Assembly: GCA_003116975.1 (NCBI GenBank)
Contig: BGKB01000062.1
Location: forward strand, 310,001 to 374,000
Source of the DNA: Aurantiochytrium sp. KH105
Lineage: Eukaryota; Sar; Bigyra; Thraustochytrida; Thraustochytriidae
Reading direction: 5' to 3'
DNA: 64,000 nucleotides
Shown here: positions 16,143 to 43,449 of the stretch, in pieces
Numbering within the stretch: position 1 is the stretch's first letter
Layout: each line of letters opens with the position of its first letter
Program-made: the position numbers and the translations under genes
The notes under the pieces: model-generated
What the model saw: the letters and a program-made list of their open reading frames with translations, nothing else
The model's database searches: none
What the model was told of the DNA's origin: nothing

Positions 16143-16708
16143 ACGTCCATGTATTTATTTTCGGGTAACACAAGAATTGCTCTCCTTTGCAAGCTTGCAA
16201 CAAATGCAAAGGCGCGTCTCTTTTCGCACTTGTCAATTTTTGATGCGATGTGTTGCGTTGTGTTGGCCTAGAGTTGTCTTGTGTGTGTGTTGTTCATTTT
16301 GATTTTAATTAACACGGAGTTCGCGAGTAAAGTACCACCTGGCCTCTCCTTCTCCGAAGGCCTCCTGGGCATCAGCCCTGTGCGGCTTTGCTTCGATCCG
16401 CGCGCGGCTGCGGCAGCGTGCCCGCGCCCCCGAGGGAGGACGCCGGCCGGAAGGGCGCGGGCGTGCGGGCCGTCCCTGCAAAGTTGCTTCGGCCCGGCAA
16501 AGACCTGATCAGCAGCTAATCATCAGCAAGCATCTTAGGGAACAAGCAGGCAGAACCGGGACCTGCGAGGCCCTGGGCGGGCGAGCGGGCCTTGCGGAGG
16601 CGTGGAGGGCGTGGCAGGCCATGGACGTGCTGCATGGACGGGGTAGAAGAGTTGGATTGGCGCAAATGCATCTTAAAGATCTTCGTTTATCGTTACGTCT
16701 GGGGTCAG

Positions 16709-16709
16709 N
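16709..16709. other. Single ambiguous base (possible assembly join)
   Basis: A lone N lies within GGGTCAG-N-AGACTGC. The other lone N in this window (25835) marks an unresolved overlap, so this may also be a join. I see no obvious duplication around this one. Confidence 0.6.
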
Positions 16710-17172
16710 AGACTGCGGCAATCGACGTTTCTCGCCGGTGGGCGAACGGTCGACCAACCGATTCGAAAAAAAATTCAAAGCCGGAGGGGTCTAGGTGCCG
16801 ATTGGCCTTCGCAAAATCATGTATTTCTCTCGTGGACTCCGTGTTAAATTAATAATTTTCTCAGCTCAGCCACTGTGGACTCAACGAACAAAAGATACGA
16901 GAGTGTGACAGTCAGCAGCGAGCGTGCAAGCACGAAATACATGCGCTAGCCGCCAGCCTGCCTGCTTGCCTGCCTGCCGCGAGCACGCAAGCGCGAGCGC
17001 ACGCAAGCGCGCTCCTCGGTCCTGTTGCCGCCCTGTCCGCTCACCCTGCGCGCCGCGTCAGAGCACACACGCGCGCACGCCCGCACGCCCGTTTTCCCCG
17101 TTGGCGCATCCGAAGCGCCGCGACGGCCGAGCAGCGAACCGAGGGAAAAAGAAGGGCACGAAGCTCGCAAGC

Positions 17173-18606
17173 ATGGGCACGGTGACCACGCCCGACGGCA
17201 AGGAGTTTAGCGACCCGCGCGAATACAGGCGGTACCTGTTCGAGCACTATTACAGCTTTCGCAACCGGAGCGATGAGACGCTCACCAAGGTCCCCGGCGA
17301 GGTGAACGGCGAGGAGTTCCATCTCGATGGACTCACCGACTGTACGGTGACCATCCTCGACGTGACCAATCGCGTCGTCGTGTCAGACCTCACCAATTGC
17401 CACGTCTTTCTCGGCCCCTCCAAAGAGTCCGTCATGCTTCGCAAGTGCAAAGACTGCACCTTTACCGTGGCCTGCAAGGACCTTCGTGTGAATTCCTGTA
17501 GCGAGTGCACCTTGCGCGCGTTTACGCCAATGCCCGTGCAGCTCGACGACTCCCACCACATCAAGGTTGGCACTTTCAATGGCGCCTACTCGGGTCTCAC
17601 CTCGCACTTTCAGGCTGTCGGACTCGACGCCTCCCAGGGCGCCGCCGTCAAGGTCAAGGATTTTAGCGAGCGTGACAAGGAGCTGCCCCAGCCGCACTTC
17701 CAGCAGCTTTCCGCATCAGATGAAGAGACCCTCGGTCCGTGGGAGATCCAGCTCGAAAACGCGCAAGGGCCTCCGGAAAACCCGCTCAAGCCAACGTGCG
17801 ACCCGGCGCCCCCTCCCCCGTGCCCGTTTCCCATCCCGGATCCCCACGCCACCTTTGAGGGCCCAGATGCTAGCAATGCTGCTGCCTCTGTTGCCTCTTC
17901 TGTCGGCGATGGCAGTGGCACCGCGGCTCCGTCAGAGGCGCAAGAATCGTCCCAGTTCACGCCGGAAACCTTTGAAGACGACCCGTTCGGTTCGTCTGAT
18001 CGTGTCGAAAATGCCGAACAGCCTGCAAACGCTGGCGAAGCCCCCGTCGATGACTTCTTCGCCCAGGAAGACCCGCAGCAAATCCAGCATCCAGAGGAGC
18101 AGGCACAGTATCAAGATTTTGGTGCCCAGCCCGATGCGGCGCAGATCCCCGCCGAGGCTCCCTACGCCCCCACGGAGACAGCCGCAACCACCACCCAATC
18201 ATCCGAGGCCGCTCCTGCGCCATCCTCGTCAGACTTCATGGCGGACTCTGACGAAACGGACGCTCGCGAAGCCTGGGAGGCTCAGTTTGCGGAGCGTATC
18301 AAGGCCAAGGATCAGGAGGCCGCAGAACTTCAAGCTCAAATGCAAGAAAAGGCCGATGAGGAGCTCGATGAGCTTTACGCTGAGCGCACCAACAAGAATG
18401 CCATTCGGTACACTTCAAACCGTGAAGCTGAGGGCGCTCTACTCCAAGAAGCCGAAGACAGCGCCGTTTCAGACGAAGATGCGCCCAACTGGGCTCGCAT
18501 TGTCTCCCTCATTGACATTAATGCAAAGGACAAGTCGGACGAGCTGAACCTTGACCGCATGAAGAACCTCATTATCCAGCTCAAGAACACTACAAAGCAA
18601 CAATAA
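17173..18606 (+). CDS. XRP2/TBCC domain-clathrin light chain fusion
   Basis: A single uninterrupted 477-residue frame joins two families. Residues about 52-170 match the TBCC/C-CAP beta-helix, closest by eye to human RP2 (XRP2), the Arl3 GAP: TVACKDLRVNSC here against TLACQQFRVRDC in RP2. The arginine-finger position is kept (R105), but the catalytic Gln of QQFR is replaced and the later Glu (RP2 PIIE) is Leu in PVQL, so GAP activity is doubtful. Residues 190-360 form an acidic, Pro/Gln-rich linker with an AP-2-type DPF motif (270-272). Residues about 362-477 resemble the clathrin light chain heavy-chain-binding helix and C-terminus (WARIVSLIDINAKDKSDELN, then LDRMKNLIIQLK, against CLTB WEKVAQLCDFN...LRSVLMSLK). 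The start at 17173 was chosen because the upstream frame is low complexity. The stop lies within AATAAA (18602-18607). Confidence 0.85.
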   Translation: MGTVTTPDGKEFSDPREYRRYLFEHYYSFRNRSDETLTKVPGEVNGEEFHLDGLTDCTVTILDVTNRVVVSDLTNCHVFLGPSKESVMLRKCKDCTFTVACKDLRVNSCSECTLRAFTPMPVQLDDSHHIKVGTFNGAYSGLTSHFQAVGLDASQGAAVKVKDFSERDKELPQPHFQQLSASDEETLGPWEIQLENAQGPPENPLKPTCDPAPPPPCPFPIPDPHATFEGPDASNAAASVASSVGDGSGTAAPSEAQESSQFTPETFEDDPFGSSDRVENAEQPANAGEAPVDDFFAQEDPQQIQHPEEQAQYQDFGAQPDAAQIPAEAPYAPTETAATTTQSSEAAPAPSSSDFMADSDETDAREAWEAQFAERIKAKDQEAAELQAQMQEKADEELDELYAERTNKNAIRYTSNREAEGALLQEAEDSAVSDEDAPNWARIVSLIDINAKDKSDELNLDRMKNLIIQLKNTTKQQ

Positions 18607-33141: not shown

Positions 33142-36100
33142 TCAAAATTGCTTAGAGTCACCAACATGAAGAACGCCAAAACTGCCATCACCAAAAGACA
33201 CAAGAAAGCGATGCAGTGGCGCTGCGTCCAGCGCTGTGATAGACGTCGGTTTTTGCGCGGACGGCGCGGTTTCCTGAAGAAGCTCCATCGAGTGCGCCCT
33301 GAGCACCAAGACCGTGGACCTCTCTGTCACACAAACGAGTAGTTCGCCATCGAGGGAAAATGTAAAGTAGAGCAAATTCACCGGCGAGACATAATCGCCA
33401 AGTTTCCGCCCATTCACAGAATAAGATATTAGCGACTGCGTCGGCGCATGCCATACACAGATGGAAGGGGTCAGCGAAGGCGCGATACCCACCCACAGCG
33501 CAGAAGTCTTGTCCACGACCACGGCTGGGCCGTTGCCATCACCCGATGGATCACTGGCCGAGCTTCCCGCAGGAAAGTCTTTGTCGACATTGTCCCCATC
33601 AGCAGCTTTCGGCGCTGTGAATCCCAAAGAACGCACGTAGTTGGCCTGCTCAAGCGTATGCACGATGCATGTCCCGTCGAGGCTCGCTGACACCACGAGG
33701 TCTAACGCAGCGCTCACGGCGATGCTCGTCACCGCGTCATCATGCCCGAGCAAAACGTTGTCGAGGACCAAGGTCTCGCGGTGCACTCTCCACACAAAGA
33801 CGCAGCAGTCTGCTGATCCTGTCAATACGTAAGCACCGTCCTCCGAAGCAACAACGCACGTCGTCAAGTCCGTATGCATTTTGAAGACTTCATCCTGACT
33901 CAACTTGCTGTCTTGACGGCGCACAAAAGGATGCCGAGGAGGAAGCGAGCCAAAGAGCACGCTCCCATCAGCGGTCGGTGCCCAATCAAACGTTGACACA
34001 CGGAACGAATTGTCGTATGAGCCAACAGCCATCATTCGTAAGAGATTGCGTGCGTCCGCTGGAATCTCCGATGCTCCAACAAGTGCTTTGACGGGCCCGG
34101 AAACGCCCGCAGACGTGTGACTGGACGACATCATATTCACTGCTGGCAAAGGCGACAGCAGCGTCGCGTCTGCGGACGCAGCTCCTGCCATCGACGATGA
34201 CGTCGCGCCTACAGAACTAAGTGCTACGGACGCCGTCGAGGGTGAAGTTCCAGGGAGCGAAGGCGAGGTGGAAAGTGATGATGGTGAAGGCGAAGAAGAA
34301 GACGAAGAGGAAGACCCCGTTGCCCCATTCATTTCACCGTAAAATGCTGGCGCTGCACCTGGGGACGCAGACAGCATCGCTCGCGTGTGCTTGGAAAGCC
34401 GCGCACTCTTACCTGGTGTGTGAGGCCCCAGCCCTTGGTGGCCTTCACGCGTCCCACCATCAACAGAGATTGCGGCTGCAACGGCGCCAGCTACACCGTG
34501 CACGCTAGGGGTCACTCGACGCCCATCCAAAAGACCACGATCAATGAGACCTGCGTGAGTGACTTTGTCCCTGCAGAGACCCGGAAGACAAACAAAGCCT
34601 CCCCACTGCCGCGCAGCGCCGAACGTAAGCTGGTATCGCTCAGCACGGAGGCCCCCGACTTGGCCCAGGGTCTCCCAGGTCGTGAAGATCTTTGCTGGAT
34701 TCGCAAACTCCCGTTTTGCAGAAATAATGTACACCATGACTGCAATTTGACGTTGTGTGACCATGAGAACATGTCGCACGTCATATTGCCGACCCAAATG
34801 CTCAATGAGCTCGTAGCGCTTGTTGCCTCCTAAACCGAATGGTATGAGCGAGGACACAACGCCAATATTAAAGACGGGCGAAGACCATTCAATTGGATCG
34901 TCTTTGAAGGATGGTTGCCGAATTAAAGTCTGAACCCAATGTGCACTATTGCACTTGGCTGCAGTAGGAACGTCGCCGTTGCTGATGCCGCGATACATTG
35001 GCAAGCGCTTGCGCCGTTGCGAGTGGGGGCGATCAAAGAGCACGGGCGGACTTTGACCGTATTCCTCTACCATTCGCTGCACCGTGCGATGCAAGTCCGG
35101 TCGCACCCGTTCAAGATAGTCGAGATCGACCGCACCTTCATACATGAGGTGAAAGTATACATTGACCGCCTCCACGGCCTCTGGGCCTTGCTGCTTGTTA
35201 CCGAACGTGAGATCGATCCAATGATGCAAGTGAGACGAAACGTGAGTGCTTTCCAAAGCGTCGCGATTCTTTCGAATAAAGTCTTCTGGGGTTTTCGCCC
35301 ATGGCGGCAGAATGACATCGTCAATGCGGGTGCCGTCCTGCTTGGTGCCCAAGTCAAAACCAGCGCTGTTGCGAAGGAACTCGGGATTGCAAAAGAACTC
35401 TGGCAGCAACTCTCGAGGACTCACTCGCGTTGCAAAGTCGAACGCCATGGCAATAGAATCGAACTGACGATCTGCATGGTCGAAGCGACCGCCTTGGAGC
35501 TGAATGTGCAACGTTGTAAAGGGTTCTAGACGCAACAGATACCATAGCACGGATCCGCGTGAAGAATAGTGGCTTCCAAAGTGCCATGGTGGGCCTTGAA
35601 GAACATTCACGTCGCCATGTTTTTGTTCCTGCAGTTGGCGATCCTCAGCGCTGCTCAACAATGGCCAGCGAAATAGACCCCCTTGGGAAGAGGTTACCGG
35701 CGAGATATTGCGGTAATCTCGCGTCGAGTCTTCGAACTTGCTGCGGAGCTCACTTCGCTTTGCCTCGGTTTGTGCACCAATGGGAAAACGAAGGTCTCGA
35801 AAGGATTCTGGTTTCTCGAGATCAATCTTTTCCGACGTATAGTCTGCCAGGACCCAAGGCAGGACCGGATATTGGGCCAAGTCAGAGTATGATCTTCCTG
35901 CAAAGTCGTTAAGGATCATCAGGTACTCGAGGTTGGAAAGCCGGCCCTCGATCCAGGCCTCCTGTGCACCCGAACGCGCGGCGCGCTCTGATGGTGTCCA
36001 CGATGCGTCTTCCTGCTCAATAAGCCGACCTAGGTGCTTGGCGGCCACGTTGCAGCGGTCCGACCCGCTGCTAAAGTCGAAAAGGTAGCTTTTGCGCTCC

Positions 36101-39100
36101 GACGTGCCCGTGAATATCTCGAGGCCGGTCCAGCGCATATTTACGCGCCGCCGCTGTACTCGGCGGACCTGCGACAGAAACCAGCGCTTGCCCACGCCCA
36201 CAGCGCCATCCGCTCGGTGTTCGCTCTGGTCGCGCATGAAACGAATAAATGTATTGAAAATTTCAAGCCGTCCAGGCACCGATCCCATCGGGGCAATCAA
36301 ACATACGTCGTCATGGAAGAGAGCTTCCCCAGCCGAGGCGCGACGCTGATGGCCCACGGGCCGTCTCGGAGGTGTCTTGGGTGCCTCGAGACTTCGTGTT
36401 GACGTTTCATCGAGGGCATGCGTATGCTTCAGATCGGACGAGCTGTGTTCAAGCGGGCGTTTTGCAAGTGCCCCACTCGACACCGTGACACCAATCGCAC
36501 GCGCTTCTTGAAGTTCACGAAAAAGATTCAGCCTCGAACCGGCCTCAGACTCGTTCCGCTCGTGCATTGCATGGCGCTCGCCGCCCGCATCCTGGCTTGA
36601 GGCTGAACCAGCATCCTGGCCACTCTTGTTGCTGTCAGGGACAGCCTTGGATTTGGCCTTATCCATGAGACGCGACGGCCGAGATCTTGAGGAGGCCTCG
36701 CGATGATCATTGGCACTTGGATTAGCCCGAATTTTAAGGCGAAGTCGCGTATGGGAGGTCTCGCAGACGTCGAGCTTGCTGAAGCGAACATCGCTCGAAC
36801 GGCCTTCGCCCCACGTTCCTCGTTCGTGCGCCACCTGCCGGAGGACGTTGGACCACGTTGCAAGAGCGTGCTTCTCCCGCGTTTTCGAGATGACACTTTT
36901 CTTCTCACGCTGGCGGATTTCTCTCCGACGCAATTGCGCCGTATCAGCACGAAGCTGCCGCAACCACCGCGCAACATCGCGATCTGGGCGATACGTTCCG
37001 GAGCCTAGCGCTTGAATTGACACGCGCGAGAGCCTGCGCGCGAGCATGGAAGCTGGCGTTTCACCTGTTGGGCCACCGCCAATGAGCGCAAGCGCATTCT
37101 CCTCACGCTGCATCCGAGCCTTGCAGCGCGCGGCAAAACGAGACACTACATCAGGCACGTCGATTCGCGAGCTCAGGTCGGGGCGAGGGTTCGCAGTAAG
37201 GGATTCCTTCAAGGCGTCCATTTCCAAAGCCATGTACCGCAAGGAGTCTACCGTTAGCGAAGCCTCATGGTCGAGCAAAAGGGAAAGAGCCGATAGTGCG
37301 CGCTCCAGCTCAACGCGAGCGGGAACTTGGGTGCCCTGTGGCGCACGCAAGCATGCTGCAGGGACTGCAAGCAACATAGTAATGACTGGTGTCTGTAACT
37401 CGAGACGAAGCACACAGCACTTGCAACGGCAATTCGTAGGATTGTGAACGGCAGCTCTCCGGGTCGGCTTCCCAGAGCCGGACTTGTCGTTCTGTTCTGC
37501 GCGTAAAGTGGGTCCGCTTGACGCCCCTCCATAAAGATTCGCATCGTGTGCTCTCGGCCCAAACGACAGAGGCGAGACGTCGAGGTCATCCAAGACCGCC
37601 AAAAGATTGTAAAACGCTTGCATCCAGAGATCCTCGGGACCAACCTCGCCTACGCCGGCACCACCATAATGCATTCCTGCAAAGGGATGCGGTCCCTCCG
37701 GAAAGGGTGCCATGGATGCAGCAACGACCCTGGAAAGGAGGGTGACCATATTATGCCCAATCGTCAGCTTGTCGTCGGAAGACATGGCCCGGAGCCTCTC
37801 TCTGGATTTTGCAACGGCGCTGAGGCTAACAAGAGCACCAAGGTGCCGCCTCACAACAGACGAGGTTTCCGCAGCGTCCAGCGCACGAAAAATCTCGAGC
37901 GTTCCCTCCAGCGCAGTGGGCCCTGCAAGAATTGTCGCCTTGGACAAAGGCCTGCGTGCTGCGTCCGTCGCAATTTGCAAAAGATCTTTGCAATGCACAA
38001 AGTCAAAGATGGTTGCCACACGCGTGAAACACGCACAAGGGCTGCCATCGTTACACCTGGAAATGGTGGAACAGACAGCCTCAACCAAATGCATTTGCCA
38101 GTGTGGTACTTGCAAGAATGCCTTCCAGTTATCTTGTGATTGAACGAGTCCCCAGAGCTCATTGAGGCCGTGCTGCTTGCGGGGCCCGCAAGACAGCCGC
38201 GCAACGACCCCAGAGAGGAGAACTTGAAGGGCTTTAGGGAAGCCCAAGCTTCGCTCTTGACCACGCCATACCACTGCAAGATCGGCAGTCTTTACGAGAA
38301 GAGCATTCAAGCTTTCCTCGTGGTGTTCCCACGCGAGGTCTCGTGAGGCCACCGAGCCTGCCAGAACGGAGGCCATTGCAGTCCAAGTGGACGCTAGTTG
38401 CTGTGTTTGAAGGGCCTGTCGGGAGCGTAAGATACGAAAGAGTTCCAGAGCCGCAAGCACTGTGGCCCGGTCTTGCGAGGCCATCAGCGCAATAAGAACG
38501 TCCGCGGCAACATTACGTACGCGTGCGGGCGAGCCTTCTTCCCAACCCGAAGAAATCGAGGACTGCGAGTTCGCCGAGGCCACAGAAGAGGCCTCGTCGG
38601 CGCTTTCTCCGAGACCATCATCCTCAACGGGAATTTCTATGTTAAAGCATTGGACCACAAATTTAGCCTCGATCCTTGACAATACGCAAAAGCTATTGAG
38701 CAAGGGGGCGAGCAATGGGGCGTCCAAATGGACGCTGCACATGAGCGAAACGAGTGCCATGATTTCGCCGCCACTCGCTCGCAATACACGCATATTTTCC
38801 ACGGCCTGTTGCAGCATATTAGTCAGCTCCAGAGAGGTTTCCGTGCCGAGTCGCCTCTCCATTGCACCTGCGTCCAATACAGACGTCATATCTGTCCATA
38901 ACGCCCGCGCCTTGTCGCGCGCAGAGGCTCCAACGAAGAAGCTTTCGCCGCCGTGGCTAGCGGAGACATCACCGCTCGCTCCCGAAGAATGCCGGTCTGG
39001 GACGACCGGAGGCAGCGAGGGCAAACTCGACGCAGGAAAGGCGAGTGCATTCCCCTCTTCATCTATGACAGGGCTCGATTGCAAACCTTGCAGACCTGGC

Positions 39101-42100
39101 GTCAAGGGGCTCACAGGTTCCAGAGCCATACCTGCGAGCGAAACCTCGGAAATTGGGTCAAAGATGACGCTACGTGACATTTTCGATCCCAAGCGCTCTG
39201 CCGGGGTCTGCTTCCGGGCGTCTCCGTCGCTCGATGTCTGATTCGAAGGCTGCGAGGCTACGCCCACCACCACAGGCCGGGACCTACCGACAAGTTCATC
39301 AACAATGAATGCAACGCCAATAAGCGAACGAAAGATCTCGGGTCGGTTCGTGCAAGCGCGACGGGCCGCCTCCACCATGGGGCCTGCGAGATTTGTTGTA
39401 TCTGATTTTGCCCAAATATCTGCGCAGAGAATGACCTGACGGACACCTTGTTTAAGAAGGACCGGGTCGTTCTCGAGCCTGCCCACCAGGTACTCGGCGC
39501 CAAGCAAGGTGTCTGGGCCAATGCAATCGGCAGAAAGGCGGCGTAACAAATAAGAAACAACTGCGAGGCCGTCCGAGAGCAGCGAGCGTGCGGCGACCGA
39601 TGCGCGCCCGACAGATACGAGCTTGCCAAGAAGATGCAGAGCACAACCGGCAAGCGTGGGCCCACCCTCAAGGGCTAACAAGGGGAAAACAGCTTGCATC
39701 CCCCCAATGGAAAGCATGGCTTTGCGCGCGCCTCGTTGCAGGCAAACACGGACGCCCTCGTCCGCAGTCTGTGCTGCAAAGGGGCGCCTGCCCAGAAAGA
39801 GTGAGGAAGCATGCCGACTCACATCCATGAATACTTTGCCTTCGCGCGCCGAGGCCCGCTCGTCTAACTCCAGAGCAACATGATTGTGCCGCACGGAAGC
39901 CAGCTTGCCCGTGTAGAGAGCTTGGATGTCTGAACTCGAAAGCGCGGCAGCCCAGAATTTGATTGCGCTCAAGCACCCATGCAAGGTGCAACCCATGTCT
40001 GCGTTTGTACCGATTGTCCACGAAGACAGCCCAACGCTTCCGAGCGGGATGCCGCAACGCCCTTCCTGGCGCAGCCGAGGTTTGCCATTTATGAAAATGG
40101 AGGCATAGTCCTGCGCACTGCCGGCGAACAGCCCCGTTGGCTTCTCGCGCGATAATACGAGGGCCACATGATACCAGCGCGCAGGCTGAATCTCAGAAGC
40201 AGCGGGATAACTCCGTGTTTGCCCCCGTGTGCGAATAGCTACAGTCAGCGTGCCATGGTCCACGTAAAATCCCACGCCCTCCTTGCGAGATCGACTGCAG
40301 ATTTCGAAAAGAGTCGCGTTCGAGTCTGTTCCATGCAAAAGGATCCACGCCGAGAAGCTGAGACTGTCCTTGCTGGGCCAGGGTGGAGAGAATGAAGCAT
40401 CTGCGGACGGAGACGTGTCCGCGTCAACATCAGGATTGTGCTCAAGATCAAGGCTTCCTGCACCTGGAAGGGACATTGAAAAGTTCACACGAAGGCCGCT
40501 CTGCACTCCTGCAAAGTAAAAGAAAGAGCGCCCACGCTCAAAGACAGAGTTTACAGTACGTGCAAGGTCAGCGACGAGGTTCGGCTGCTCGGACACGGTC
40601 CAAATTTTCCGGAACAGAGCCTTGAGCTGGCGCACCGAGGTTTGTGCGCAAGCGAGAGCGGCCATGATCTGCAGAGCATAAAGTCGAGATTCGCTGTCCA
40701 TGCGCTCGATGCGCGCGAGTAAATGCAGTACGAGAGGCTGCTGCAGAATAACGAGCGCCGAGGCATTTACGCCGGACTCGATATAGTCAAAGGGGTCCAT
40801 CTCGGCGACCTGGGCGTCGACGCCGCCATCTTTGAGTGCAAATTCCGGAAGATGGAATCGTGTACCCGGACTTTCATCTTCGTCATACAGAGTGCTGATT
40901 TCTGATTCGCTGCTGTTCTGCAGCAAGCCCTGATCCTCGCTAACGCGGCGACTTTGGAGTGCGCATACGAGTCCGCGCAGCACGATAAGAGTCGCGCGAA
41001 ATAGGGTCGGATATAAATCTTGGGCGTGGAGAAGGACGACCACAACTACGTCCATGGCCTTGGCATTTAAAATCAGTTTGCTTCCCGCTGGAGGAAGGTG
41101 GGCAAAACGCCCAGTTTTGGCGTAATACGTGAAGGCTCGCTTCCCGTCAAACACCATTGCTAAGGCAGCGGAGAGCGCGCTTGCGACATCAGCCTCAGAG
41201 TGACAAGTTTTCACCAAGAGCGGCCCAAGGTCCGCGTACAAGGCAGCGGTTTGCGGACTCATACGAACGGTTCGGTTGTGCGCCAAAAGGCGAGTGAGGG
41301 TGCGCATCGTGTGAAGTGCAACTAAGCAACGCTGTTCCCGGTCTGGGCACGCGCTAACAAAGTGAAGGAGGTCATCCACGAGACTGAACTCGGTCCATAA
41401 CGTAGCGATTGTCATCGATGCCGCCATGGAGGCGAAAAGATCGTGGAAGAATTCGACCTTTGTTGCATACGCTTCTTGTGGTTTCGCTTTGTATTCGCGA
41501 TCAATCTCATCTCTGATGGCCCTCAAAAGCTGCCGAGCCTCTGCGTGATCGAGGAGGTGATGCCACAACACTTTGAAGATGTTTGCAAGCGCAGGACTCA
41601 CGGCTGCGTCGTTACGAATGCCTCGCCGAGCAAGCATTGCAAAGAGATCGCCTCTGACAGCTTGACTCAGTGTGCCACCCGTACGAGCTTGGTGGAGAAT
41701 AGCATCGAGGATGGCCCAGGCGCAACACTCCATCGCCCAGGGCAAGGGCGGAGACCTCTGCAGCCCGAGAATATCGAATAGCTGGCCGATTCTCCGGTCG
41801 CCGAGCGTCGGTGCTTCGCCAATGAGCATGGTCGCCGTGAGAACGACGAGAGCCTCGCTGGATCCAACCTTGGAGCGCACGCGTTCGTGGAGCTCTGGCA
41901 TGGTGGTGCACGCAGCATGAAAGAGATCGAGACGCGAATGGGCGTCGATCGACTTGAGCCATTGCTGTTTGATGGCTAAATCATCGCATTGCGACTCGAA
42001 GACAAAGCGGGGATATTGTACAAAGACTCTGTCTAAATTCGTGTCGAGGCGACGAAGTACGATAAAGAGAGCACGCTTGAGCTTGCAAGAAGACGTTGCA

Positions 42101-43449
42101 GTTAACTTGTCGACAACGTAATCAGTGGCGTGTTCCCGGAGAGTGGGATCCATTACATTCGAAATGAATCCTTGAGTCACAGCGAGGAGGCCTCGGTCAT
42201 CGCGACGCGCTCTGGAGTCCAAAGCAAAGGTGCCGTCGACCGCGAAGCAAGTCATTGCGCCGACGCATACGTCTGGGACGGTGGCAACATAGCGTGAACA
42301 TGGGTCGTCATCCCAAGGATATGAAGAGAGTTCCTCGCAGAGCACACTGCAAACCTGGTGCACTGCAGTTTTGGTGAAGGCGCGCAGCATAAACTTGCTC
42401 GAGTATAGCGTTGATACAGCGGCTGCCGAAATGACAATGTCAGCGTGGGCTCGAGCGATTGGGCTAGAAATGATGTCGACAATAGCGTGCGTCTCTGTCT
42501 CCATATCTTCAAAAATGCGTGCGAACACCGACGAGCAGCCGTGGAATTTGCGCGAAAGGTAAAGCGCGGCCCCGTTGGCCTGAAGAGCAGCATCGAGCGT
42601 GCACGAAAGCCAGGAAGAATCGGTGTTTAGCACGAGCAGATTCCACACACGATGGACAGTTTGAACAAGAACGGGAAGAAATTGTGATGTGAGCACCAAA
42701 TAATAGTCTGCGCCTTCTGGTTGAAGATCTGGCTTGACGCTGGCGAGGTCGAGACATCGCCAGTCCCCTGGAAGGCAACTTGAGCAGCAAAGCTCGCACA
42801 CGGCGAGAACTAGCGTGGCGGCTTCGCGCTGGCGAGCGACCGAACTAACCGGGAAGCCTTGGCGTTGGCTTGAGGTTGTTCTTGTTTTTGCTGCTCCTGC
42901 TGCTCCTGCTGCTGTTGACGAGGGAGAGTCGCCTACATTCGCAAAGCCATCTTTGAGAACAGCATCAAGAAAGAGCGAAGCCTCCTGTAAAAGGGAACCT
43001 CGAAGCGTTTCGGGAACGGGCCATGAAAAGTGCAAAGCAATAGCGGTGGCGACCTGGCAGATACTTATCGTGTCCTCGGTCCCCTTGCTGCCTTTGAGCA
43101 TTACAAGGAGAGCTTCTCCGAAGACAGCATGGACACCCACCGCACAGTCTAGCGTCGCGGCAGCGTTTTGCAATTCTTCTTGGAAAGCAAGCGATTCAAT
43201 CCCAGACGCTTGCGCATGTTCAAGAAGTTTACGTGTCTTTTCGATGGCAAGGGATCTGTGGAAGGCCTCAATCTCTGAGAGCTTGGCCTCAGAGATCTGC
43301 TCGCGATTGCCGAACCCGTCTCGTCTCTGATGCTGCGAGCTCCCGCTCCCCCTGCGCGAGGATCTCCTACCGCTCCCGCCGCCGCTGGTGCCGTCGCTGG
43401 TGCTGCTGCCGCCAGCCCCAAGGTCGTCACGTGAGCGCCCCTGGCCCAT
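33142..43449 (-). CDS. Neurobeachin/LRBA-type BEACH-WD40 protein
   Basis: This is a giant intronless frame of 3,435 residues. Domains in order: long helical ARM/HEAT-like N-terminal region (about 60-1000); concanavalin-like lectin domain (about 1020-1190; DSLSFSAWILLHGTDSN, then WYHVALVLSREKPTGLF); another helical region; PH-BEACH (about 2365-2480); BEACH (about 2490-2780; WIEGRLSNLEYLMILNDFAG, YPVLPWVLADY, FGSHYSSRGSVLWYLLRLEP, LPPWAKTPEDFIRKNRDALE); a Ser-rich linker (about 3040-3090); and C-terminal WD40 repeats (about 3170-3435; YVLTGSADCCVFVWRVH). The order is that of neurobeachin, LRBA and Dictyostelium LvsA-type proteins, scaffolds in vesicle trafficking and membrane-protein sorting. 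It is divergent from the acidic orphan gene, with a promoter region of about 1 kb. Confidence 0.95.
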   Translation of the reverse strand: MGQGRSRDDLGAGGSSTSDGTSGGGSGRRSSRRGSGSSQHQRRDGFGNREQISEAKLSEIEAFHRSLAIEKTRKLLEHAQASGIESLAFQEELQNAAATLDCAVGVHAVFGEALLVMLKGSKGTEDTISICQVATAIALHFSWPVPETLRGSLLQEASLFLDAVLKDGFANVGDSPSSTAAGAAGAAKTRTTSSQRQGFPVSSVARQREAATLVLAVCELCCSSCLPGDWRCLDLASVKPDLQPEGADYYLVLTSQFLPVLVQTVHRVWNLLVLNTDSSWLSCTLDAALQANGAALYLSRKFHGCSSVFARIFEDMETETHAIVDIISSPIARAHADIVISAAAVSTLYSSKFMLRAFTKTAVHQVCSVLCEELSSYPWDDDPCSRYVATVPDVCVGAMTCFAVDGTFALDSRARRDDRGLLAVTQGFISNVMDPTLREHATDYVVDKLTATSSCKLKRALFIVLRRLDTNLDRVFVQYPRFVFESQCDDLAIKQQWLKSIDAHSRLDLFHAACTTMPELHERVRSKVGSSEALVVLTATMLIGEAPTLGDRRIGQLFDILGLQRSPPLPWAMECCAWAILDAILHQARTGGTLSQAVRGDLFAMLARRGIRNDAAVSPALANIFKVLWHHLLDHAEARQLLRAIRDEIDREYKAKPQEAYATKVEFFHDLFASMAASMTIATLWTEFSLVDDLLHFVSACPDREQRCLVALHTMRTLTRLLAHNRTVRMSPQTAALYADLGPLLVKTCHSEADVASALSAALAMVFDGKRAFTYYAKTGRFAHLPPAGSKLILNAKAMDVVVVVLLHAQDLYPTLFRATLIVLRGLVCALQSRRVSEDQGLLQNSSESEISTLYDEDESPGTRFHLPEFALKDGGVDAQVAEMDPFDYIESGVNASALVILQQPLVLHLLARIERMDSESRLYALQIMAALACAQTSVRQLKALFRKIWTVSEQPNLVADLARTVNSVFERGRSFFYFAGVQSGLRVNFSMSLPGAGSLDLEHNPDVDADTSPSADASFSPPWPSKDSLSFSAWILLHGTDSNATLFEICSRSRKEGVGFYVDHGTLTVAIRTRGQTRSYPAASEIQPARWYHVALVLSREKPTGLFAGSAQDYASIFINGKPRLRQEGRCGIPLGSVGLSSWTIGTNADMGCTLHGCLSAIKFWAAALSSSDIQALYTGKLASVRHNHVALELDERASAREGKVFMDVSRHASSLFLGRRPFAAQTADEGVRVCLQRGARKAMLSIGGMQAVFPLLALEGGPTLAGCALHLLGKLVSVGRASVAARSLLSDGLAVVSYLLRRLSADCIGPDTLLGAEYLVGRLENDPVLLKQGVRQVILCADIWAKSDTTNLAGPMVEAARRACTNRPEIFRSLIGVAFIVDELVGRSRPVVVGVASQPSNQTSSDGDARKQTPAERLGSKMSRSVIFDPISEVSLAGMALEPVSPLTPGLQGLQSSPVIDEEGNALAFPASSLPSLPPVVPDRHSSGASGDVSASHGGESFFVGASARDKARALWTDMTSVLDAGAMERRLGTETSLELTNMLQQAVENMRVLRASGGEIMALVSLMCSVHLDAPLLAPLLNSFCVLSRIEAKFVVQCFNIEIPVEDDGLGESADEASSVASANSQSSISSGWEEGSPARVRNVAADVLIALMASQDRATVLAALELFRILRSRQALQTQQLASTWTAMASVLAGSVASRDLAWEHHEESLNALLVKTADLAVVWRGQERSLGFPKALQVLLSGVVARLSCGPRKQHGLNELWGLVQSQDNWKAFLQVPHWQMHLVEAVCSTISRCNDGSPCACFTRVATIFDFVHCKDLLQIATDAARRPLSKATILAGPTALEGTLEIFRALDAAETSSVVRRHLGALVSLSAVAKSRERLRAMSSDDKLTIGHNMVTLLSRVVAASMAPFPEGPHPFAGMHYGGAGVGEVGPEDLWMQAFYNLLAVLDDLDVSPLSFGPRAHDANLYGGASSGPTLRAEQNDKSGSGKPTRRAAVHNPTNCRCKCCVLRLELQTPVITMLLAVPAACLRAPQGTQVPARVELERALSALSLLLDHEASLTVDSLRYMALEMDALKESLTANPRPDLSSRIDVPDVVSRFAARCKARMQREENALALIGGGPTGETPASMLARRLSRVSIQALGSGTYRPDRDVARWLRQLRADTAQLRRREIRQREKKSVISKTREKHALATWSNVLRQVAHERGTWGEGRSSDVRFSKLDVCETSHTRLRLKIRANPSANDHREASSRSRPSRLMDKAKSKAVPDSNKSGQDAGSASSQDAGGERHAMHERNESEAGSRLNLFRELQEARAIGVTVSSGALAKRPLEHSSSDLKHTHALDETSTRSLEAPKTPPRRPVGHQRRASAGEALFHDDVCLIAPMGSVPGRLEIFNTFIRFMRDQSEHRADGAVGVGKRWFLSQVRRVQRRRVNMRWTGLEIFTGTSERKSYLFDFSSGSDRCNVAAKHLGRLIEQEDASWTPSERAARSGAQEAWIEGRLSNLEYLMILNDFAGRSYSDLAQYPVLPWVLADYTSEKIDLEKPESFRDLRFPIGAQTEAKRSELRSKFEDSTRDYRNISPVTSSQGGLFRWPLLSSAEDRQLQEQKHGDVNVLQGPPWHFGSHYSSRGSVLWYLLRLEPFTTLHIQLQGGRFDHADRQFDSIAMAFDFATRVSPRELLPEFFCNPEFLRNSAGFDLGTKQDGTRIDDVILPPWAKTPEDFIRKNRDALESTHVSSHLHHWIDLTFGNKQQGPEAVEAVNVYFHLMYEGAVDLDYLERVRPDLHRTVQRMVEEYGQSPPVLFDRPHSQRRKRLPMYRGISNGDVPTAAKCNSAHWVQTLIRQPSFKDDPIEWSSPVFNIGVVSSLIPFGLGGNKRYELIEHLGRQYDVRHVLMVTQRQIAVMVYIISAKREFANPAKIFTTWETLGQVGGLRAERYQLTFGAARQWGGFVCLPGLCRDKVTHAGLIDRGLLDGRRVTPSVHGVAGAVAAAISVDGGTREGHQGLGPHTPGKSARLSKHTRAMLSASPGAAPAFYGEMNGATGSSSSSSSSPSPSSLSTSPSLPGTSPSTASVALSSVGATSSSMAGAASADATLLSPLPAVNMMSSSHTSAGVSGPVKALVGASEIPADARNLLRMMAVGSYDNSFRVSTFDWAPTADGSVLFGSLPPRHPFVRRQDSKLSQDEVFKMHTDLTTCVVASEDGAYVLTGSADCCVFVWRVHRETLVLDNVLLGHDDAVTSIAVSAALDLVVSASLDGTCIVHTLEQANYVRSLGFTAPKAADGDNVDKDFPAGSSASDPSGDGNGPAVVVDKTSALWVGIAPSLTPSICVWHAPTQSLISYSVNGRKLGDYVSPVNLLYFTFSLDGELLVCVTERSTVLVLRAHSMELLQETAPSAQKPTSITALDAAPLHRFLVSFGDGSFGVLHVGDSKQF

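Follow-up and report, generated by a model that had tools for sequence, protein, structure and literature searches.

Organization of the fusion gene and its surroundings

The window, a stretch of 64,000 nucleotides of contig BGKB01000062.1 (C62) of Aurantiochytrium sp. KH105, carries at 17173-18606 on the forward strand a single-exon gene that translates to 477 residues, with the terminal TAA as the sole stop and the ATG in the context gcaagcATGG; the same frame is present on a second contig, C52. The genome searched (G000) comprises 76 Mb in 367 contigs. An earlier note on this DNA had read here one uninterrupted frame linking an RP2-type TBCC domain to a clathrin light chain (CLC), and both the translation and the Pfam profiles bore this out. 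The search with NCBIfam profiles returned no family, and that of the window with Rfam no match.

The TBCC part, including an N-terminal header of its own, starts near residue 7 and the CLC homology near residue 267. The header (PDGKEFSDPREYRRYLFEHYYSF, residues 7-29, 17191-17259) is common to the two Tudor-TBCC paralogues of the genome, and P7, D8, G9, K10, F12, D14, E17, Y21, E24, Y27 and F29 are invariant in all three aligned sequences. The RP2-type TBCC domain, assigned by Pfam and by a PDB sequence search, covers about residues 21-182 (17233-17718; Pfam core 47-164) and includes, by alignment with RP2, R105 at the arginine-finger position (17485-17487; RP2 R118) as well as D103 (17479-17481) and D125 (17545-17547), which stand for Q116 and E138, respectively. 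A proline/alanine-rich linker of residues 183-266 (17719-17970) connects the two parts; its start continues a PxPH...W...NP tail (residues 172-204), in which P172, P174, H175, W190, N203 and P204 are invariant in the fusion and both Tudor-TBCC paralogues. The CLC N-terminal region, residues 267-360 (17971-18252), contains FEDDPFG, with its DPF at 17980-17988, and DDFFAQ. It is followed by the heavy-chain-binding helix predicted from homology, residues 361-430 (18253-18462; Pfam, PDB alignment and shuffle test), and by the CLC C-terminal motif NWARIVSLIDINAK...LDRMKNLIIQLKN, residues 431-477 (18463-18603; alignments and shuffle test).

Ten long frames of the window were scanned with Pfam; seven carry domains of ordinary cellular proteins, i.e., an RSN1-type channel, a GFAT-like enzyme, a P-type ATPase, a melibiase, GWT1, a BEACH protein and an aminotransferase, and three carry none. 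The BEACH frame, at 33142-43449 on the reverse strand, is uninterrupted over 3435 codons and has BEACH, PH-BEACH, neurobeachin and concanavalin-like domains, a neurobeachin-type gene in one exon. At 16309-16847, some 330 bases before the ATG of the fusion, lies an insertion of about 540 bp that has 12-base terminal inverted repeats (TTAACACGGAGT / ACTCCGTGTTAA) and one N inside and is absent from C52; it looks like a short non-autonomous DNA transposon.

The second copy and selection on the frame

Over 1434 bp, the fusion on C52 (L018, 5897-7330) and the window copy show 31 substitutions and are free of indels. Across the roughly 30 kb that were compared, the two regions align collinearly in six BLAST blocks at 90-96% identity, and most families searched in the genome come in pairs. 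C52 is probably the other haplotype of the window region, with a recent whole-genome duplication as the alternative. The absence of indels from the frame contrasts with 11 gap events in the 3′ flank (to 20000) and 18 in the 5′ flank (from 16000), the latter count coming from a poor alignment, since this flank holds the insertion absent from C52.

The substitutions in the frame comprise 23 synonymous and eight nonsynonymous changes (pN/pS 0.10). When substitutions were placed at random over the whole frame, 22.2 nonsynonymous codons were expected against the eight observed (P 0.0002, the floor of the 5000 random-placement trials). For codons 183-355, which span the linker and the CLC N-terminal region, 13.8 nonsynonymous codons were expected from the 19 substitutions and seven observed (P about 0.001); the bare linker (codons 183-258) has three among eight against 5.7 expected (P 0.05). 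In codons 1-182, the TBCC part, none of the seven substitutions between the copies is nonsynonymous.

That two genes are read together here by chance, through a read-through frame, a missed intron or an assembly error, is extremely improbable. The case is made from DNA only, and the splice-site screen covered GTRAG donors, of which the fusion frame has none; however, the 477 codons run without a stop, the same join is found on two diverged contigs without indels, and the linker-region substitutions are biased to synonymous ones. Furthermore, the only in-frame Met codons 3′ of the TBCC domain are 356, 390 and 463, so that a separate CLC gene, with its first Met at residue 356, would be left without its own N-terminal region. 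The indel-free frame on C52 and the synonymous bias, including that of the linker region, thus argue against a misassembly, two genes or a hidden intron. Read-through, a hidden intron and misassembly had each been considered as candidates and were ruled out by the second copy. The fusion is real and is kept by purifying selection. A hidden intron, a misassembly and failure against the CLC profile, which the earlier note had named as outcomes that would speak against it, were each looked at and none was found.

The RP2-like TBCC domain and candidate GTPase partners

The Pfam TBCC profile (PF07986) matched residues 47-164 with an E of 1.6e-26 and 92.9 bits (cut-off 24.8), and in the PDB sequence search the XRP2 chains 2bx6 and 3bh6 matched residues 21-170 with an E of 7.8e-23, as compared to 1.9e-14 for TBCC. 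The domain had been described as an XRP2/TBCC fold at about residues 52-170; the RP2 type holds, but the extent has to be revised, as the Pfam core is at 47-164 and the module begins near residue 7. In RP2, a human blindness protein, a Gln and a Glu assist the arginine finger in catalysis, and F177 has a role as well. Alignment with RP2 showed that R118 and F177 are both kept, as R105 and F164, and that Q116 is replaced by D103 and E138 by D125, in agreement with the earlier claims that the arginine finger is retained and the assisting residues are lost; the change from Glu to Asp is, however, a conservative and mild one. R118H is reported to lower the affinity of RP2 for Arl3 (PMC3124502), and the arginine is reported to be required for RP2 function in trypanosomes (PMC3879569).

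Searching the genome for the TBCC family gave 12 matches, which we read as six genes in pairs, with TBCC proper among them. By alignment, Gln, Arg and Glu are all kept in four of the six (L022, L028, L026 and L030), and none of the three is present in L032, which we take to resemble TBCCD1; among the five genes with the arginine finger, the fusion alone is without the assisting Gln and Glu. The TBCC_N domain (PF16752) is absent from the fusion and present in the separate gene L026 according to Pfam. In a midpoint-rooted domain tree of 11 rows, 10 of them different, two very long and that of L029 trimmed, the fusion groups with the Tudor-TBCC paralogues (support 80/85), and this group joins human RP2 and L030, an EF-hand TBCC protein (support 90/97), apart from TBCC proper, both relevant forks being unstarred.

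The Tudor-TBCC proteins (L022/L025 and L028/L029) share with the fusion the header PDGK.F.D..E...Y..E..Y.F and the PxPH...W...NP tail, but they have Tudor repeats in place of the light chain and keep Gln and Glu. The larger of these genes (L022 2696-9997 on C33, second copy on C47) is open for about 3000 codons and has many Tudor-like repeats (GTRVTAKLKGWKQAYPGVIKAVKNGAYKIVFDDGEV) around the RP2-type TBCC domain, and a smaller Tudor-TBCC gene is found on C18 and C11. In L030 (1112-4957, reverse strand, on C120, second copy on C136), in which Gln, Arg and Glu are kept, the TBCC domain is accompanied by a long charged tail and by weak EF-hand matches that stay below the curated cut-offs; the protein may start with MGSEGA.

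Compared with RP2/XRP2, the Arl3 GAP of structures 2bx6 and 3bh6, the fusion has the same TBCC domain with the equivalents of R118 and F177, but it differs in the Asp residues at the Gln and Glu positions and in having a light chain as its C-terminal part. Its N-terminus, MGTVTTP, compared by eye with the acylation consensus, has Gly2 and Pro7 but no Cys3, and a Pro at position 7 may break the N-myristoylation consensus. The C-terminal NDK-like domain of XRP2 gave no Pfam match in the fusion at E up to 1, and RP2 architectures are reported to vary between organisms, the NDK-like domain not being universal (PMC3879569).

Candidate partners for such a domain are encoded in the genome. The search for the Arf family gave 126 matches, a mixed superfamily list of which 13 short stretches were read. 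L045 (P0002) is Arl3, the best eight of its 67 PDB matches being Arl3 chains with E down to 1.3e-73, and L042 and L043 look, by eye, like Arl1 and Arl2. The GMP_PDE_delta family, that of PDE6D and UNC119, is represented by two genes in two copies each. A cluster on C49 (380611-393106), with matching places on C90, comprises at least four Arf-like genes; of the four read on C49, an apparent intron interrupts two and is absent from the other two.

The presence of Arl3 and of PDE6D/UNC119-family genes, together with the kept arginine finger and an Asp that could partly substitute for Glu, would be compatible with an active Arl3 GAP on clathrin that performs the RP2 function proper on coats and ends UNC119/PDE6D cargo delivery there. 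We consider this decidedly unlikely, since the Gln is now an Asp and the other RP2-like genes, with their Q and E, could serve that purpose. Less so, but still unlikely on balance, is that the protein is a real second light chain whose TBCC domain does not bind a GTPase and acts as a structural or tubulin- or membrane-contacting head, making this isoform sterically distinct from the ordinary light chain. D103 and D125 at the positions of Q116 and E138, where the four other arginine-keeping genes have Q and E, are in line with this reading, and with the assisting residues changed the contact to the GTPase may be lost altogether; yet R105 and F164 are kept, and the lack of nonsynonymous substitutions in codons 1-182 argues that the domain is constrained. 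Binding of a GTP-loaded Arl2/Arl3- or Arf-class GTPase appears to us the most likely activity of the TBCC domain; with the arginine finger kept and Gln and Glu now Asp, a GAP of weak or re-tuned activity, or a binder of the effector kind, is more likely than a full RP2 GAP.

The clathrin light chain part and its predicted place on the coat

The Pfam profile Clathrin_lg_ch (PF01086) matched residues 292-474 with an E of 8.6e-16 and 59 bits (cut-off 22), and the two copies in the genome gave 63.1 and 64.4 bits with it. Similarity to solved clathrin light chains in the PDB search was weak by itself, with E values of 0.15-0.98 against the whole protein and 0.053-0.33 against the CLC part alone. 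Since the second half of the fusion is compositionally biased, a shuffle control was run. Residues 361-477 scored 153 against the ordinary CLC of the genome, 10.7 s.d. above the windowed-shuffle mean of 55 (s.d. 9), and none of 1000 shuffles reached this score. The same held when residues 361-430 were compared with the stretch of human CLC in 1xi4 (score 89, 0/1000) and the C-terminal 47 residues with the ordinary CLC (score 77, 0/1000). Against the 1xi4 stretch, which stops short of the C-terminus, these 47 residues predictably did no better than shuffles, their score being reached by 612 of 1000 windowed and 740 of 1000 full ones. A chance coiled-coil similarity, also considered as an explanation, was ruled out by the shuffles.

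The earlier note had seen in the protein a CLC C-terminus only, at residues 362-477, and had assigned the DPF motif to the linker. The light chain is a true one, but it is full-length, with homology from near residue 267, and the DPF belongs to its N-terminal region, not to the linker: alignments showed this region to be the counterpart of MAEEDPFGF in the ordinary CLC, both copies of which have this stretch and a second DPF, and of the CLCB stretch FGFFSSS...AFLAQQ. The DPF of the CLC N-terminal region may be an AP-2 ligand. The adaptin ear (PF02883) was found in two genes, each in two copies; the alpha-adaptin platform profile (PF02296) had no match in the genome and was silent in the controls too, so that its silence is not evidence of absence.

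The four matches of PF01086 in the genome correspond to the two copies of the fusion and two copies of an ordinary CLC. The gene model of the latter, made from DNA, has one intron (L021 4972-5121 and 5222-5782) and encodes 237 residues; its ATG is preceded, 17 codons upstream, by an in-frame stop, and the protein starts with MAEEDPFGF. In the second copy (L020), exon 1 is 97% identical and encodes the same first 50 residues, followed by the same GTAAGT donor. The CLC part of the fusion is about 30% identical to the ordinary CLC across 219 aligned columns, and judged by its sequence it is an old paralogue of that gene and not a recent copy. As a separate ordinary CLC is retained, the fusion would be an extra isoform and not the sole light chain. 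The clathrin heavy chain is a single gene, a 1702-codon frame in two copies (C26 and C252), which accounts for 14 of the 16 matches of PF00637; the remaining two, on C33 and C47, fall in frames of some 1200 codons that may encode other clathrin-repeat proteins.

Like human CLCA and CLCB (PF01086), the fusion has an N-terminal FG/DPF region, a heavy-chain-binding helix and the motif W..R..L.D.N....L.R....QLK, but it carries about 266 extra N-terminal residues with the TBCC domain. Of three Trp in the helix stretch of human CLC, the fusion retains the first and has M390 and L401 in place of the others; the ordinary CLC has M and F at these two positions. As both light chains deviate at the same two positions, binding to the heavy chain is no less plausible for the fusion than for the ordinary CLC.

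IFT46 is present in two copies in the genome, which suggests that the organism is probably flagellated at some stage. Together with the report that RP2 acts at the basal bodies of trypanosomes (PMC3879569), this would fit a TBCC protein that acquired its coiled coil from a light chain and has its site of action apart from clathrin, the flagellar base being one example. Such a role is improbable in view of the completeness of the CLC part, with its N-terminal DPF, helix and C-terminal motif, and of its match to the human 1xi4 stretch, which at 16.9 bits is no weaker than that of exon 2 of the ordinary CLC (11.2 bits).

The reading that we prefer, with a probability of about 0.5, is that the fusion is a second, specialised light chain that enters coats with its RP2-like domain displayed; this domain would probably bind an Arl/Arf GTPase and have lowered or altered GAP activity. 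The C-terminal 211 residues, a predicted complete light chain, would, as we infer from the homology of the family, bind the single heavy chain along its hub and proximal leg and replace the ordinary light chain in a fraction of the triskelia. The N-terminal beta-helix of the RP2 type would thereby be set on the coat surface via the flexible Pro/Ala-rich tether, and the clathrin coat would be a new address for an RP2-type module. Address modules of RP2 are reported to differ, with TOF-LisH directing it to basal bodies in trypanosomes and N-myristoylation serving in mammals (PMC3879569). The TOF-LisH-TBCC protein of Trypanosoma brucei resembles the fusion in having a lineage-specific module fused next to the TBCC domain that, in T. 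brucei, addresses the protein, and differs in the module itself and in its address (PMC3879569).

More tentatively, the fusion could make the coat responsive to a small GTPase by sensing which nucleotide Arl3, Arl2 or an Arf carries on the membrane that is budding; assembly, disassembly or the release of lipidated cargo would then be coupled to GTP hydrolysis directly through the lattice and not through adaptors. We class the protein among the clathrin light chains, as an isoform bearing an RP2-like domain, and not as RP2, because the assisting Gln and Glu, when looked for, were found to be replaced. Why cells have light-chain isoforms is an open question, and this genome keeps an ordinary light chain together with a second one, fused to a domain of a GTPase-interacting type and under purifying selection. 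If the TBCC domain binds an Arl or Arf protein, the fusion would physically and directly connect clathrin with the lipid-cargo system of Arl3 and RP2, and would serve as a natural means of probing what light chains do.

No description of a fusion between a clathrin light chain and a TBCC domain was found in the open-access papers searched, and domain databases such as InterPro may list the architecture. In the accessible portions of the respective texts, a proteome study of Aurantiochytrium mentions clathrin once, in a reference, and TBCC not at all (PMC12221091), PMC4501334 mentions clathrin twice and the light chain not at all in its main text, and a study of TBCC in Phytophthora capsici does not mention clathrin (PMC11595192). 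The collections of viral contigs, phages and genome contigs, which are viral or prokaryotic and thus silent on eukaryotes, gave no relative.

As a minor observation elsewhere in the genome, PfaA-like matches include a divergent pair on C72 and C155 and, taken with the general character of the genome, would fit a thraustochytrid. The best of these matches reaches 930 bits, under the profile's cut-off of 1010; of 14 control genomes, 11 also match this profile, all of them below the cut-off.
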